Shown here: piece after piece, positions 16,742-22,232 of the stretch
Numbering within the stretch: the stretch's first letter is position 1
How the letters are laid out: the number at the start of each line of letters is the position of its first letter
Source of the DNA: Candidatus Aminicenantota bacterium
GTDB taxonomy: Bacteria; Acidobacteriota; Aminicenantia; Aminicenantales; Saccharicenantaceae
Length of the DNA stretch: 42,786 nt
Direction: 5' to 3'
NCBI GenBank assembly: GCA_013178315.1
Contig: JABLWX010000010.1
Span: forward strand, 1 to 42,786
The notes under the pieces: generated by a model
What the model was told of the DNA's origin: nothing
Seen by the model: the letters and a program-made list of their open reading frames with translations, nothing else
Database searches by the model: none
Made by a program: the position numbers and the translations under genes

Positions 16742-18871
16742 GTGGCCTCTAAATATTTTAAGAAACTCACCACCAGGAACACCTTCCTGACCCTGGCTTT
16801 CTTTGCCCTGCCCTTCCTCATCCTGCTGGTGGTGGTTGACCTGCAGATTTCCAGGGTGATAAAAGACCAGGTCAACTCGCAACTGGCCGGCGCGGTTCAG
16901 GTCAATCTGAAAACCATCAAGCTTTTTCTGGAAGACCGGCTGACCGACCTGGGCTCGGTGGCCCGGTTGAATTGCCCGGGCCTCGACTGCCTGAACGAGC
17001 AGGAAAAAATCTACCTGAACCTGATCCAGGGGAAAAAATGGTACGATTTTATCTTCATCGCCGACCTCCAGGGTAACCTGGTCAGGTCATACAACCGAGA
17101 GCTCCAGGGCAACATATCAAGACGGAATTATTTTCAGGCCTCGGCCGGGGGCCAACCGTTTATCTCCGATATTTTTTATTCTGACATAACCGGGGCCAAT
17201 GCCATGGTCATATCCCACCCGGTACTGGATTCGGAAGGGCACGTGGTCGGGGTTCTCGGGGCCTCTCTCAACCTGAATTACCTGTACAGCCTGATTTCAG
17301 ACCTGCGGTTGGGCCGAACGAGCGAGCTGTTCTTGTTGAGCCGGGAAGGCCTGATCCTGTCCCCCACCAAGCTGGGCGCCTTCCCCTTTGCCGAGAGGGC
17401 TTTCTCCGGCGACCTCAATCCCCACCGCGGGGACAGCGGAGTAATAGTTCACCTGGATTACCGCGGGGAAAGGGTCCTCTGTGCCTACCAGCTTCTGCCC
17501 GGGACCAGCATCTACCTGGCCTCGGAAATGGACCTGCGGGAGGCCCTGCTGCCGGTCCGGCGTTTCAACCGCATCATCCTCTATTTCTTCCTGCCTTCCT
17601 TTCTTTTCCTGATCATCATATCCAACCTCTATTCCAGGAGGGTTACCAGGCTGATCCAGAAACTCACGGCCAACCTGGCCCGGACCCTGGACGAATGCCG
17701 GGAGCGCCGGCAGCAGCTGGACCAGATCAACCACGAACTGGAAAACCGAATTCTGGAAAGCCAGCGACTGGCCGCCGAACTCCAGCTATCCGAGCAATAC
17801 ATCCTGCACCTCATCGACAGCATTTCCCTGGGCCTGGCCGGTACCGACCTCGAAGGCAGAATTGCCCAGTACAACAAGCATTTCCTGACCCTGTTTGAAG
17901 CCAGAGAAATCAGAAAGGGCGAAATCCTCTTTGAGGCCGTTCCGGCGTTAAAAGATTCAGAGATCATGGAGTCCTTCCGGGCCACGGTTAAAGAAGCTTC
18001 GGCCCGGCAGCTGACAGCCCGGAAAATCGACCGGGGCCACGGCGAGGAATACTTCAACCTGGCCTTTTTCCCCATCACCAACGGCGAAAAACGCCTGCTG
18101 GGAATAACCATCCTGGTCGAAAACGTCACCGAAAAAGAAAAGCTCCGCAACAAGCTGGCTGAATACGAAAAGCTGTCGGCCCTGAGCCAGCTGGCCCTGG
18201 GCGCCGCCCACGAGATAAACAACCCCCTGCTGGGGATTTCTTCCTTCCTGGAAATCCAGATGGAGGAAACAACCGATCCCCAGAAGAAACAGCAGATGGA
18301 AGTGGTCCTGGAAAACGTCTACCGTATTTCCCAGACCATCAGGGGGCTGCTGGATTTTGCCCGGCCAGCTCCCCCTCGCTTTACCCGGGTCAACCTGAAC
18401 CAGGTGATCGAGGACACCCTGGCCTTCCTGAGCCACCAGCCGATTTTCAAGAAGATCCAGGTCGAACAGAAGCTCTATCCGCAGCTGCCCCCGGTCACCG
18501 CCGACCTCAACCAGGTCCGCCAGGTTCTGACCAATATCTTCATTAACGCTGCCCAGGCCATGCCCGAAGGAGGCAGGCTGGCCGTGACCACCTCCAAGGT
18601 CAAGTTCGAAGATTACGTCCAGATTGAGATTGCCGACACGGGCATCGGCATCCAGCCCGAAGACCTGAAGAAAATCTTTGACCCCTTTTTCACCACCAAG
18701 AAGAGCCAGGGCACCGGACTGGGCCTGAGTATCAGCCTGTCCTATATCAAGAGCCATAATGGAGACATCCAGGTCCAGAGCCAGCCAGGCGCCGGCACCA
18801 CCATCACCATAATCCTGCCCATCAGGCAAAAGGGCCGCCTGACCGGAAAAGAAGAGGAGGTCATAAGTTGA
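16742..18871 (+). CDS. Cache-domain sensor histidine kinase (NtrB-like)
   Basis: A 709-aa membrane kinase. TM1 is at about residues 14-35, followed by an extracytoplasmic double-Cache sensor (about 36-275, with YDFIFIADLQGNLVRSYN and a second lobe around SELFLLSREG), TM2 (about 279-300), a HAMP-like/coiled-coil linker (to about 350), a PAS domain (about 340-455), HisKA with AAHEINNPL and phospho-acceptor His490, and an HATPase with IFINAAQAMPEGG (N box), DTGIGI, FFTTK and GTGLGLSI. GTG start with GGAG nine bases upstream; no in-frame ATG nearby. TTGA overlap with the response-regulator gene fixes them as a pair. Cache sensors often bind amino acids or small acids, so a glutamate- or peptide-derived signal is plausible given the downstream glutamate dehydrogenase. 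This last point is inference. Confidence 0.92.
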   Translation: MASKYFKKLTTRNTFLTLAFFALPFLILLVVVDLQISRVIKDQVNSQLAGAVQVNLKTIKLFLEDRLTDLGSVARLNCPGLDCLNEQEKIYLNLIQGKKWYDFIFIADLQGNLVRSYNRELQGNISRRNYFQASAGGQPFISDIFYSDITGANAMVISHPVLDSEGHVVGVLGASLNLNYLYSLISDLRLGRTSELFLLSREGLILSPTKLGAFPFAERAFSGDLNPHRGDSGVIVHLDYRGERVLCAYQLLPGTSIYLASEMDLREALLPVRRFNRIILYFFLPSFLFLIIISNLYSRRVTRLIQKLTANLARTLDECRERRQQLDQINHELENRILESQRLAAELQLSEQYILHLIDSISLGLAGTDLEGRIAQYNKHFLTLFEAREIRKGEILFEAVPALKDSEIMESFRATVKEASARQLTARKIDRGHGEEYFNLAFFPITNGEKRLLGITILVENVTEKEKLRNKLAEYEKLSALSQLALGAAHEINNPLLGISSFLEIQMEETTDPQKKQQMEVVLENVYRISQTIRGLLDFARPAPPRFTRVNLNQVIEDTLAFLSHQPIFKKIQVEQKLYPQLPPVTADLNQVRQVLTNIFINAAQAMPEGGRLAVTTSKVKFEDYVQIEIADTGIGIQPEDLKKIFDPFFTTKKSQGTGLGLSISLSYIKSHNGDIQVQSQPGAGTTITIILPIRQKGRLTGKEEEVIS

Positions 18872-20232
18872 CAACCTTCTCAGTGATGCTGGTTGATGAT
18901 GAAATCCTGACCCTCAATAACCTGAAAAAAGCCCTGGAAAAGGAGGGCTACGAAATAATCCTGGCTGAATCGGGAGAAAGGGCCCTGGAACTTCTGGAAA
19001 GCTGCCGCCCGCACTTGATTCTGCTGGACCTGGTGCTGCCCGGCATTTCCGGCCTGGAGGTCCTGAAAAAGGTCAAGGAAACCGACCGGGAAATAATCGT
19101 CGTCATGATGTCGGCCTACGAAATACTGGAAAAAGCGGTGGAAGCCATGAAGCTGGGGGCCTACGATTATCTCCTGAAGCCCTTCAAGCTCAGCGAACTC
19201 AAAGCCACGGTGCAGCGGGCCCTGGAAACGCTGTCCCTGCGACTGCGCTTCCTGGACGAGTTTGAAAAGCAAAAGCAGCGGTACTATTTCGGAAAGATCG
19301 TGGCCCAGAGCCGGAAAATGAGGGAAGTGCTGGACATGGCAGCCAGGGTGGCTCAGTCCGACCGGACCACCGTGCTTCTTCAGGGGGAAAGCGGCACCGG
19401 CAAGGAACTGCTGGCCCGGGCCATTCATTACCACAGCCCCAGGGCGGAGAAGCCAATAGTGGCCATCAATTGCGCGGCCATCCCGGAAAACCTGCTGGAG
19501 AGCGAGCTATTCGGCTACGAAGCGGGGGCCTTCACCGACGCCCGGAAGAGAAAAATCGGCCTGCTGGAAAAAGCGGACGAGGGCACGGTCTTCTTTGATG
19601 AAATCGGCGATATGTCCCTGGCCCTCCAGGCCAAAATCCTGAGGGTGCTGGAAGACGGGACTTTCGTCAGGCTGGGCGGTTCGCAGCCGATAAGAATCAA
19701 CGTCCGCATCATCGCCGCCACCAATCGCGACCTGGTCAAGGAAACCGAAAAAGGAAATTTCCGTTCCGACCTCTTTTACCGGCTCAACGTCGTTCCCATA
19801 ACGATTCCTCCGCTGAGGGAAAGGAAAGAGGATATCATGCCCCTGGTCCTGTTTTTCATGGATGAATTCAACCGGGAGATCAAGAGAAATTACCGGGGCC
19901 TGGAGCCGGACGCAGCCCAGGCCCTGCTGAATTATTCCTGGCCCGGAAACGTCCGGGAGTTAAGAAATACCGTGGAGAGAGTTATGTCCCTCTACCAGGC
20001 TGAAAATATCCAGTTACAGTTCTTACCCCAGGAGATAAGGCAGGAACTGAATCTTCCCGAAGATAAGGTCCTGGAGACCCTGGCCAAGAACTGGCCTACC
20101 CTGGACCACCTGGAAAGGGCTTATATCGCCAGGGTTCTTGAATATACAGGGCAAAATAAGAGCCAGGCAGCCAGAATCCTCGGCCTCAATCCGGCCACCT
20201 TGTATCGCAAAATCAAGTCCTGGAAAGAATGA
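18868..20232 (+). CDS. NtrC-family sigma-54-dependent response regulator
   Basis: A 454-aa regulator. The receiver domain (1-120) has Asp10/Asp11, phospho-acceptor Asp54 (LILLDLVLPG) and Lys in LLKPFK. The AAA+ domain has Walker A GESGTGKE (173-180) and Walker B VFFDEIGDM. The sigma-54-contact loop reads GAFTDA (220-225) instead of GAFTGA; the key Phe and Thr are kept, and this variant is known in functional members. Arginine-finger and sensor motifs follow. The C-terminal Fis-type helix-turn-helix is NKSQAARILGLNPATLYRKI. TTG start overlapping the kinase stop (TTGA). Four bases after its stop is a long palindrome, and beyond it a consensus sigma-54 promoter, so its direct target is very probably the small-protein/gdh operon. 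Confidence 0.94.
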   Translation: MTTFSVMLVDDEILTLNNLKKALEKEGYEIILAESGERALELLESCRPHLILLDLVLPGISGLEVLKKVKETDREIIVVMMSAYEILEKAVEAMKLGAYDYLLKPFKLSELKATVQRALETLSLRLRFLDEFEKQKQRYYFGKIVAQSRKMREVLDMAARVAQSDRTTVLLQGESGTGKELLARAIHYHSPRAEKPIVAINCAAIPENLLESELFGYEAGAFTDARKRKIGLLEKADEGTVFFDEIGDMSLALQAKILRVLEDGTFVRLGGSQPIRINVRIIAATNRDLVKETEKGNFRSDLFYRLNVVPITIPPLRERKEDIMPLVLFFMDEFNREIKRNYRGLEPDAAQALLNYSWPGNVRELRNTVERVMSLYQAENIQLQFLPQEIRQELNLPEDKVLETLAKNWPTLDHLERAYIARVLEYTGQNKSQAARILGLNPATLYRKIKSWKE

Positions 20233-20235
20233 GTT

Positions 20236-20263
20236 TCGCATTTTGCAATATTGCAATTTGCGA
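20236..20263. promoter_or_regulatory. 28-bp palindrome, likely enhancer site for the NtrC-type regulator
   Basis: Interrupted inverted repeat with 24 of 28 symmetric positions: outer arms TCGCA/TGCGA and a perfect 14-bp core TTGCAATATTGCAA. Its centre is about 91 bases upstream of the predicted start of the sigma-54 promoter at 20315, the usual distance for an upstream activator sequence. It lacks a T-tract and is AT-rich, so it is not a terminator for the regulator gene. Confidence 0.7.
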
Positions 20264-20314
20264 GAGCTACACCTGTTTATCATATTAAATTTTTTATTAT
20301 CAATAAGATAATTC

Positions 20315-20330
20315 TGGCACGACAATTGCA
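20315..20330 (+). promoter_or_regulatory. Sigma-54 (-24/-12) promoter
   Basis: TGGCAC-GACAA-TTGCA matches the RpoN consensus TGGCAC-N5-TTGCW at every defined position. The predicted start is near 20340-20341, just before the GGAGG ribosome site (20343-20347) of the 82-aa gene. The AT-rich stretch 20281-20312 between the palindrome and the promoter may ease bending. Confidence 0.9.
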
Positions 20331-20352: not shown

Positions 20353-20601
20353 ATGAAAAACGTATTGCCCCTGCCCCGAAAAGAGCTGGAAGAGAAAAAA
20401 CAAGCCGAACAAAAGGCTAAGATTATTAAATTTCCCGAAATCCATGTAATGGAGACAGCAGAACCCGGCTCAGGCAAGTCACCCAGGGTCAAAATAACAA
20501 CCCATTATCTCTACTACCGCGATAAGAAAATTCCCATAAGCCGATTTGAAAAAGCCGGGTATGGAAAGTTGCTCCGGCTGCTGGTCAAAGAAATTTCTTG
20601 A
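20353..20601 (+). CDS. Unknown 82-aa protein, first gene of the sigma-54/gdh operon
   Basis: ATG at 20353 has GGAGG five bases upstream and lies directly behind the sigma-54 promoter; a longer open frame starting at TTG 20251 would run through the promoter and is rejected. The protein is small and basic: a Lys/Glu-rich helical start (RKELEEKKQAEQKAKII), a central stretch with FPEIHVMETAEPGSGK, and a C-terminal half with HYLYYRDKKIPISRF and KLLRLLVKEIS. I see no signal peptide, TM helix or Cys cluster. It ends 11 bases before the glutamate dehydrogenase ATG. It could be a regulator or partner of that enzyme, but I do not recognise the family. Confidence 0.7.
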   Translation: MKNVLPLPRKELEEKKQAEQKAKIIKFPEIHVMETAEPGSGKSPRVKITTHYLYYRDKKIPISRFEKAGYGKLLRLLVKEIS

Positions 20602-20612
20602 AAGGAGAACCC

Positions 20613-21905
20613 ATGCCAGAAAAGGCCAAAGTCCATTATATCCATCCCATCCCCGAGGCCAAGGAATACGACCCGTTTTTTGAAGCCACCCTCCAATTTG
20701 AAAAGGCAGCCAACTTCCTGGACCTCGATCCCTGGATATACCAGCGGCTGAAATACCCGGAAAGGGAATTGACGGTCCATATCCCCATTACCATGGATGA
20801 TGGGCGGGCCGAGATCTTTACCGGCTTCAGGGTGCAACATTCCACGGTCAGGGGGCCGGCCAAGGGCGGAATCAGGTTCTCACCCAATGCTTCCATCAGC
20901 GAGTGCAAAGCCCTGGCCACCTGGATGACCTGGAAATGCGCCGTGGTCGACCTGCCCTTCGGCGGCGGTAAGGGAGCGGTTATCTGCGACCCGCTCAAGA
21001 TGTCAGAAAACGAGCTGAGGAAACTCACCAAGGAATATACCCTGGCCATCAGGGATATCATCGGGCCCTTCAAGGACGTCCCGGCTCCGGACATGTTCAC
21101 CAACGCCCAGACCATGGCCTGGATAGCCGACGCCTACAGCCAGGCCTGCGGGCACCTGGAACCGGCCGTGGTCACCGGGAAACCGGTTCACCTGGGAGGT
21201 TCTCTCGGCCGGGCCATGGCCACCGGGACCGGCCTGTTTTTTGTCCTGGAGGAAGCCCTAAAATACCTGGGCCTGAATTTCGAAGGGCGAACCGTGGCCA
21301 TCCTCGGTTTTGGCAACGTCGGGTCCTCGATAGCCAAGCTGGTGCATAAGGCTGGCTGCCGGGTCATCGCCATCACCGATATCTTCGGGGGCATTTACAG
21401 CGAGAAGGGAATCGATCCCTTCGAGTTGGAAAAACAGGTCAAACAAACTGGCTCGGTGGTCAACTTCCCCGGAACCGAACCGATCGACAACGACAGCCTG
21501 ATTGCCCTGGACTGCGATATTCTGATTCCGGCCGCCACCGAAGGCCAGATTCACCGGGGCAATGCCGGCCAGGTCAAGGCCAGGATTATCCTGGAAGGAG
21601 CCAACGGGCCGACCACCACCGAGGCCGACAGCATCCTGGTGGATAAGGGGGTGCTGGTCTGCCCTGACATCCTGGCCAACGCCGGCGGGGTGACCGTTTC
21701 CTACCTGGAATGGGTCCAGGACCTGCAGCGTTTCTTCCTGAGCGAAGAAGAGGTTACAGAAAAGCTGGAAAAGAAAATGAAAAAGGCTTTCCATGAAATC
21801 GTTGACCTCATGGAAAAGCATAACCTGCCGATGAGAGAAGCGGCCTATGTCCTGGCAGTCGGCAGAGTAGCTGAAGCCCTAAAAGCCTTGGGCCGAGCGG
21901 CCTGA
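20613..21905 (+). CDS. gdhA: Glutamate dehydrogenase (Glu/Leu/Phe/Val family)
   Basis: A 430-aa hexameric-type dehydrogenase that interconverts glutamate and 2-oxoglutarate plus ammonia. Substrate-binding motifs are GPAKGGIRFSPN and the catalytic-lysine strand PFGGGKGAV; APDMFTNAQTMAWI follows. The nucleotide fold begins VAILGFGNVGS, and CDILIPAATEGQI and ILEGANGPTT complete the Rossmann domain. The Asp after the next strand (ITDIFGG) favours NAD over NADP, hence a catabolic role, but this is a weak indicator. The ATG has AAGGAG six bases upstream; a TTG at 20598 is less likely. It is controlled by the sigma-54 promoter upstream and ended by a strong terminator. In a peptide fermenter it would feed deaminated glutamate into 2-oxoacid oxidation. 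Confidence 0.95.
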   Translation: MPEKAKVHYIHPIPEAKEYDPFFEATLQFEKAANFLDLDPWIYQRLKYPERELTVHIPITMDDGRAEIFTGFRVQHSTVRGPAKGGIRFSPNASISECKALATWMTWKCAVVDLPFGGGKGAVICDPLKMSENELRKLTKEYTLAIRDIIGPFKDVPAPDMFTNAQTMAWIADAYSQACGHLEPAVVTGKPVHLGGSLGRAMATGTGLFFVLEEALKYLGLNFEGRTVAILGFGNVGSSIAKLVHKAGCRVIAITDIFGGIYSEKGIDPFELEKQVKQTGSVVNFPGTEPIDNDSLIALDCDILIPAATEGQIHRGNAGQVKARIILEGANGPTTTEADSILVDKGVLVCPDILANAGGVTVSYLEWVQDLQRFFLSEEEVTEKLEKKMKKAFHEIVDLMEKHNLPMREAAYVLAVGRVAEALKALGRAA

Positions 21906-21947
21906 GCACCAATAAAACCGTTTTCCTTCTTAACCTAATTCCCTCCT

Positions 21948-21979
21948 GGGAGGGCGCCAGCCCTCCCACTTTTTTTTTT
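21948..21979 (+). terminator. Rho-independent terminator after glutamate dehydrogenase
   Basis: Perfect 8-bp stem GGGAGGGC/GCCCTCCC with loop GCCA, followed by AC and ten T. It lies 42 bases after the gdh stop, and its T-tract touches the end of the convergent TM2 gene. Confidence 0.93.
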
Positions 21980-22232
21980 AAACTGAGTAGCTCAGGACCT
22001 TGCCCTCGGCATCACAGTTCCTGAACCAGACCAGGACCGGCTTGTTCTGGACGTCGTAGAATTTGCCCAGCAGAATCATGATCAGGTCGACCAGCACCCC
22101 GATTCCCAGGCAACCCAGGGTGAACAGCCAGACCAGGCCGGTGCCGGTCTTGCCCACATAAAAGCGGTGCCCGCCGAACAGGCCAAACAACCAGCACAGC
22201 AAGAAAGTTACCAGCCGGGATTTTTCGGACAT
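21978..22232 (-). CDS. TM2-domain membrane protein
   Basis: An 84-aa protein with the TM2 signature: a first helix (LVTFLLCWLFGLFGGHRFYVGKTGTG, about residues 7-32) ending in GGHRFYVGK, a short turn, and a second helix (about 33-56) containing DLIMILLGKFYD. The family is widespread and its function is not known in bacteria. The polar C-terminus (about 20 residues) follows. The gene converges with gdh and overlaps the terminator T-tract. An AAAGGAGG ribosome site precedes ATG. Confidence 0.85.
   Translation of the reverse strand: MSEKSRLVTFLLCWLFGLFGGHRFYVGKTGTGLVWLFTLGCLGIGVLVDLIMILLGKFYDVQNKPVLVWFRNCDAEGKVLSYSV

Follow-up and report, generated by a model that had tools for sequence, protein, structure and literature searches.

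ORF82, a small basic protein and probable built-in partner of a clade-specific glutamate dehydrogenase in Aminicenantia

We analysed a 42,786 nucleotide stretch of DNA from a Candidatus Aminicenantota bacterium (the window) and found that the short open reading frame directly ahead of its glutamate dehydrogenase (GDH) gene, gdh, encodes an 82-aa basic protein, ORF82, that is likely to serve this enzyme as a built-in partner or regulator. The reading that we favour, to which we give a probability of roughly 0.55, is that ORF82 would be a co-translated modulator of one GDH clade that docks on an N-terminal tail of the enzyme. The interaction with GDH is supported only indirectly, through translational proximity, a tail confined to this clade and changes in that tail which accompany degenerate ORFs.

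Conservation and predicted structure of ORF82

ORF82 occupies positions 20353..20601 of the forward strand, its frame running from an ATG at 20353 to a TGA at 20599-20601, with a Shine-Dalgarno sequence (GGAGG) 5 bases 5' of the ATG and 11 bases separating its stop codon from the gdh ATG at 20613. An earlier note on this DNA had remarked on a good ribosome site of its own and a tight 11-base gap, both of which hold, and its reading depended on the frame being conserved in relatives; frame, start codon and Shine-Dalgarno site are all kept in the orthologues. A search with the single sequence found ORF82 in 12 of 40 relatives, while a profile search recovered orthologues in 19 of the 142 Aminicenantia genomes and, phylum-wide, one further clear case, a 64-aa version from another Acidobacteriota class (G200). 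The conserved parts of the protein are an IIKFPEI-type motif (residues 24-30) and a C-terminal domain (about residues 45-81). Across the orthologues the C-terminal block reads roughly [YF][LI]YYxxKKIPIxxFxKxGYxKLLxLLVKEI, with sequence conservation that reaches the other class of the phylum, and a short upstream block, A-[KE]-I-I-x-[FW]-P-[DE], is present in every orthologue except that of G200.

Nei-Gojobori estimates gave an omega of 0.06-0.28 for ORF82 where dS was finite, and over the last 35 residues dN was 0 at a dS of 1.1-1.3 in three congeneric pairs. ORF82 is therefore a real conserved gene under strong purifying selection; a chance ORF at 20353-20601 is ruled out by dN/dS and synteny, given the conserved frame, start codon and Shine-Dalgarno site. 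The protein has a predicted isoelectric point of 8.8-10.3 across orthologues, against 5.6-6.1 for the paired GDHs.

Neither sequence nor profile comparisons matched ORF82 to any family in Pfam, NCBIfam, PHROGs or the PDB, and Foldseek found no fold relative in the PDB or BFVD, in keeping with the earlier description of an unrecognised protein. By the family tests made ORF82 would thus represent a new family. The empty Foldseek result is itself weak evidence for a novel fold because the model is so small and only partly ordered, and the top matches, GAPDH for example, were discarded as noise, with mostly 16-19 residues covered. Relatives were also absent from the plasmids and viral contigs searched. 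The AlphaFold2 model, built with 17 orthologues, has a mean pLDDT of 68.9 and a pTM of 0.35. Its N-terminal half is low-confidence coil, which does not agree with the charged helical start first proposed. Residues 21-30, the IIKFPEI stretch, reach a block mean of 76. The C-terminal half was rightly read as compact and basic, and is predicted to form three strands (46-48, 52-55 and 58-61) followed by two helices (64-68 and 70-81), with block pLDDT values of 79-86 over residues 51-80.

Gene order, co-occurrence and control of the cassette

ORF82 lies within a cassette of forward-strand genes. A histidine kinase with dCache_1 sensor, PAS, HisKA and HATPase domains (16742..18871, assigned by domain matches and orthologues) is followed by an NtrC-type response regulator (18868..20232) comprising a receiver, a sigma-54 activation domain with GAFTDA and a Fis-type HTH; the first 4 bases of its gene are also the last 4 of the kinase gene. 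Downstream of ORF82, gdh (20613..21905) encodes a 430-aa hexameric-type ELFV GDH with a private N-terminal tail; its dimerisation and dehydrogenase domains match PF02812 (183.8 bits) and PF00208 (266.6 bits), and the product scores lower than the equivalog cut-offs that NCBIfam sets for archaeal GdhA and GdhB. A terminator-like hairpin with a T run on the same strand (21947..21968), found by pattern match in a region not clearly enriched in comparison with shuffled sequences, probably marks the end of the ORF82-gdh operon. Beyond it, a convergent 84-aa frame on the reverse strand (21978-22232) encodes a short membrane protein that looks TM2-like by eye.

The order regulator, ORF82, gdh was seen at every locus with enough contig, with the kinase preceding the regulator and 1-14 bases between the ORF82 stop and the gdh start. 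GDHs at about 71% identity or more were found in 19 genomes of the class, 18 of which carry ORF82, the nineteenth (G058) having a truncated ORF82; the nineteenth ORF82 carrier is G049, where the locus stops at a contig edge. The next GDH outside this clade is 55% identical and lacks ORF82, as do all 74 genomes with only more distant GDHs, and at the level of the phylum the same coincidence holds in 12 of 12 cases counting the truncated G058. ORF82 goes with one GDH clade only. The co-occurrence with gdh that the earlier note proposed to check is confirmed in a narrower form, ORF82 being the immediate 5' neighbour of gdh at every locus whose contig extends far enough, and the homologues far from gdh with another role that would have spoken against its reading were not found, no homologue occurring away from this gdh. 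Kinase orthologues (E<=1e-120) are present in 18 genomes of the class, all of them cassette carriers, and kinase and regulator co-occur with ORF82 as strictly as GDH does. Within its own genus the cassette is present in 6 of 19 genomes and therefore appears to have been gained or lost as a unit.

The genome of the window also encodes a second, large GDH (L101, G000:C1:57364-58161) in a frame of >860 aa with an ELFV domain, and may therefore not depend on the small GDH alone. In another Aminicenantia family, tandem GDH genes are followed by a sensor kinase gene (L063, G099:C44:55774-58310), with no ORF82.

The consensus sigma-54 promoter noted previously ahead of ORF82 is a perfect match to TGGCAC-N5-TTGC, TGGCACGACAATTGCA, with its -24/-12 elements at 20315..20330 of the forward strand, and is the sole zero-mismatch sigma-54 site in the window. 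It is recognisable at orthologous loci with upstream sequence, being weaker in L024 and L074, and rpoN has one match in the genome. About 50 bases ahead of the -24 element, with its centre ~90 bases 5' of the inferred transcription start, is a 26-base dyad, CGCATTTTGCAATATTGCAATTTGCG (20237..20262, no strand assigned), which is conserved across loci with the consensus TGCANNTTGCANTATNGCANNNTGC. The dyad occurs once in its own genome and, allowing <=2 mismatches, in 16 of the 142 genomes of the class, all cassette carriers and each at one place only, at ORF82, whereas a backward control of the pattern gave one match in total across the 142. It is probably the enhancer site to which the NtrC-type regulator would bind, and at <=2 mismatches ORF82-gdh would be the only target of the regulator detectable by the dyad pattern. 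As each of these cassette genomes has a single copy of the dyad and the rest of the class has none, the two-component system seems to be dedicated to ORF82 and gdh. The features of a sigma-54/NtrC-type operon are all present, namely the promoter, an upstream enhancer-like dyad, a regulator with an activation domain and rpoN, and they define a two-component system with a clear operator, whose control seems to be limited to one operon. Between dyad and promoter (20270-20315) the DNA is AT-rich, and an element similar to TTTCAATAAGTTA that recurs there looks by eye like an IHF site.

The GDH tail and the role of ORF82

The first 18 or so residues of the paired GDHs form a tail (MPEKAKVHYIHPIPEAKEYDPF for the GDH of the window) that is missing from 12 sampled non-paired GDHs of the class. 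Its Tyr9-Ile10 is identical in 18 of 18 paired GDHs once those with a known degenerate ORF82 are set aside. G058 has lost the C-terminal domain of ORF82 through an in-frame deletion that leaves MNHKKSQVALEKESSPPKGELIPLIKKTER, while the start, the Shine-Dalgarno site and 30 in-frame codons survive. The GDH of this genome is still constrained (dN 0.039 and dS 1.69 against G034), and Ile10, now Thr, is the one position altered out of 196 invariant columns. The ORF82 of G200 has no IIxFP block, and in the GDH of that genome both Tyr9 and Ile10 are changed, among 6 changes. A repeat with 14 sequences left the GDH picture unchanged and, at invariant sites in G058, counted 1 kinase change and 2 regulator changes. 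The Tyr-Ile changes match exactly the two lineages with a degenerate ORF82, which suggests that ORF82 docks on the GDH tail; the correlation is suggestive only, because it involves two lineages, one of them (G200) distant, and was spotted after the fact.

Two further approaches to the pairing were set aside. A resemblance between IIPFPDI of ORF82 and YISPLPEL of the GDH tail is seen in some families and fails across all of them. A single-chain AlphaFold2 model of ORF82 and GDH, obtained purely as a modelling device from L014, whose two frames happen to agree, by translating across the ORF82 stop, had a mean pLDDT of 49, most of the GDH N-domain being of low confidence, and was not used. At the G058 locus (L056, G058:C84, reverse strand, about 650-1300) about 700 bases lie between regulator and ORF82, and this spacer contains a long inverted repeat, AGTGAGTCAGACACCCTTTA ... 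TAAAGGGTGTCTGACTCACT, near the in-frame deletion, possibly a small mobile element.

Under the favoured reading, activation of the dCache kinase and NtrC-type regulator would lead to ORF82 and GDH being made together. The basic beta-beta-beta-alpha-alpha C-terminal domain of ORF82 would then dock on the acidic GDH by way of the GDH-specific N-terminal tail, [KR][IV]xYIxP, and docked ORF82 would tune the activity or partner binding of the GDH hexamer, acting as a modulator and not as an obligate folding factor. The earlier note had offered a partner, an activity modulator or a stability factor for the dehydrogenase. The former two are partly supported, with a linkage to gdh stricter than it had described (one clade, an own promoter, a dyad and a two-component system), but an obligate folding or stability factor is disfavoured since G058 has lost the C-terminal domain yet retains a constrained GDH.

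The tight co-occurrence of the kinase and regulator genes makes a feedback role the main rival, in which ORF82 would bind the NtrC-type regulator, the kinase or operator DNA and so limit or sustain gdh expression. Kinase, regulator, dyad and ORF82 are found together as faithfully as GDH is, and a strongly basic product from the first gene after the promoter would suit such a role, but ORF82 is tied to gdh by gaps of 1-14 bases, the GDH tail changes track ORF82 degeneration with no comparable loss of a motif in kinase or regulator, and Pfam scans of ORF82 and its orthologues returned no DNA-binding family; we regard feedback as unlikely, if the strongest competitor. Less likely again is a role in which ORF82 leaves GDH catalysis as it is and either recruits this GDH to a second enzyme, as an adaptor, or binds a ligand and senses a metabolite. 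Its conserved sequence falls into two separate blocks, the IIxFP motif and the C-terminal domain, which might each bind a different partner, but the cassette encodes no second partner and the gene pair is followed by the terminator-like hairpin. If ORF82 were a leader ORF, translated for the sake of coupling to gdh and with a product of no consequence, the short gaps would be explained, as would the start, Shine-Dalgarno site and 30 codons retained in G058 despite the lost C-terminal domain. This is very improbable in view of the strong amino-acid constraint on the C-terminal domain (dN 0 at dS about 1.1), whose sequence is conserved as far as another class of the phylum.

Relation to known small-protein regulators

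GDH stands at the junction of carbon and nitrogen metabolism and few bacterial small proteins are known to act on it. Tentatively, and with somewhat less confidence than we place in the modulator itself, ORF82 may be the first of a new family of small subunits that regulate a bacterial hexameric GDH, are dedicated to it and dock on a clade-specific N-terminal tail, within a self-contained module of sensor kinase, sigma-54 activator, single operator, partner and enzyme that is inherited as a unit. The ORF82-GDH pair is testable, offers a predicted motif for docking and a lineage with a natural deletion, and comes from a group represented here by metagenome-assembled genomes only.

ORF82 could work like GarA, IF7/IF17 or sP26/GlnK1, and by the family tests made would be a member of none of them. 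GarA of mycobacteria acts on a large GDH and is not encoded beside that GDH. This small protein has an FHA domain and reduces the activity of NAD-GDH (PMC2881912). The likeness is that of a separate small protein acting on GDH, which for ORF82 is proposed logic only; Pfam finds no FHA domain in ORF82 or its orthologues, and the GDH of ORF82 is of the 430-aa type with ORF82 inside its operon. In cyanobacteria IF7 and IF17 inactivate glutamine synthetase, the 65-aa IF7 by direct binding and with nitrogen-responsive transcription, and their gif genes are repressed by NtcA (PMC7760959). IF7 resembles ORF82 in its small size and controls a nitrogen enzyme, as ORF82 may do; the enzyme is however a different one, and ORF82 shares a sigma-54 promoter with the gene of its enzyme. 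Scans of ORF82 against Pfam and NCBIfam, on which this comparison is based, matched no family. The Methanosarcina mazei proteins sP26 and GlnK1, reported to interact with GlnA1 (PMC11957540), are a further case of small proteins and an enzyme of nitrogen metabolism, but sP26 has 23 aa and GlnK1 is PII-like, whereas the 82-aa ORF82 has no PII match in Pfam or NCBIfam and no PDB fold match.

For the control region the closest comparison is rocG of Bacillus subtilis, a SigL (sigma-54)-dependent catabolic GDH gene with RocR as activator (PMC4348106). Both have a sigma-54-type promoter and an enhancer-binding activator ahead of a GDH gene; in the cassette, by contrast, the activator belongs to an adjacent two-component system, the dyad apparently serves one operon and a small ORF precedes gdh.
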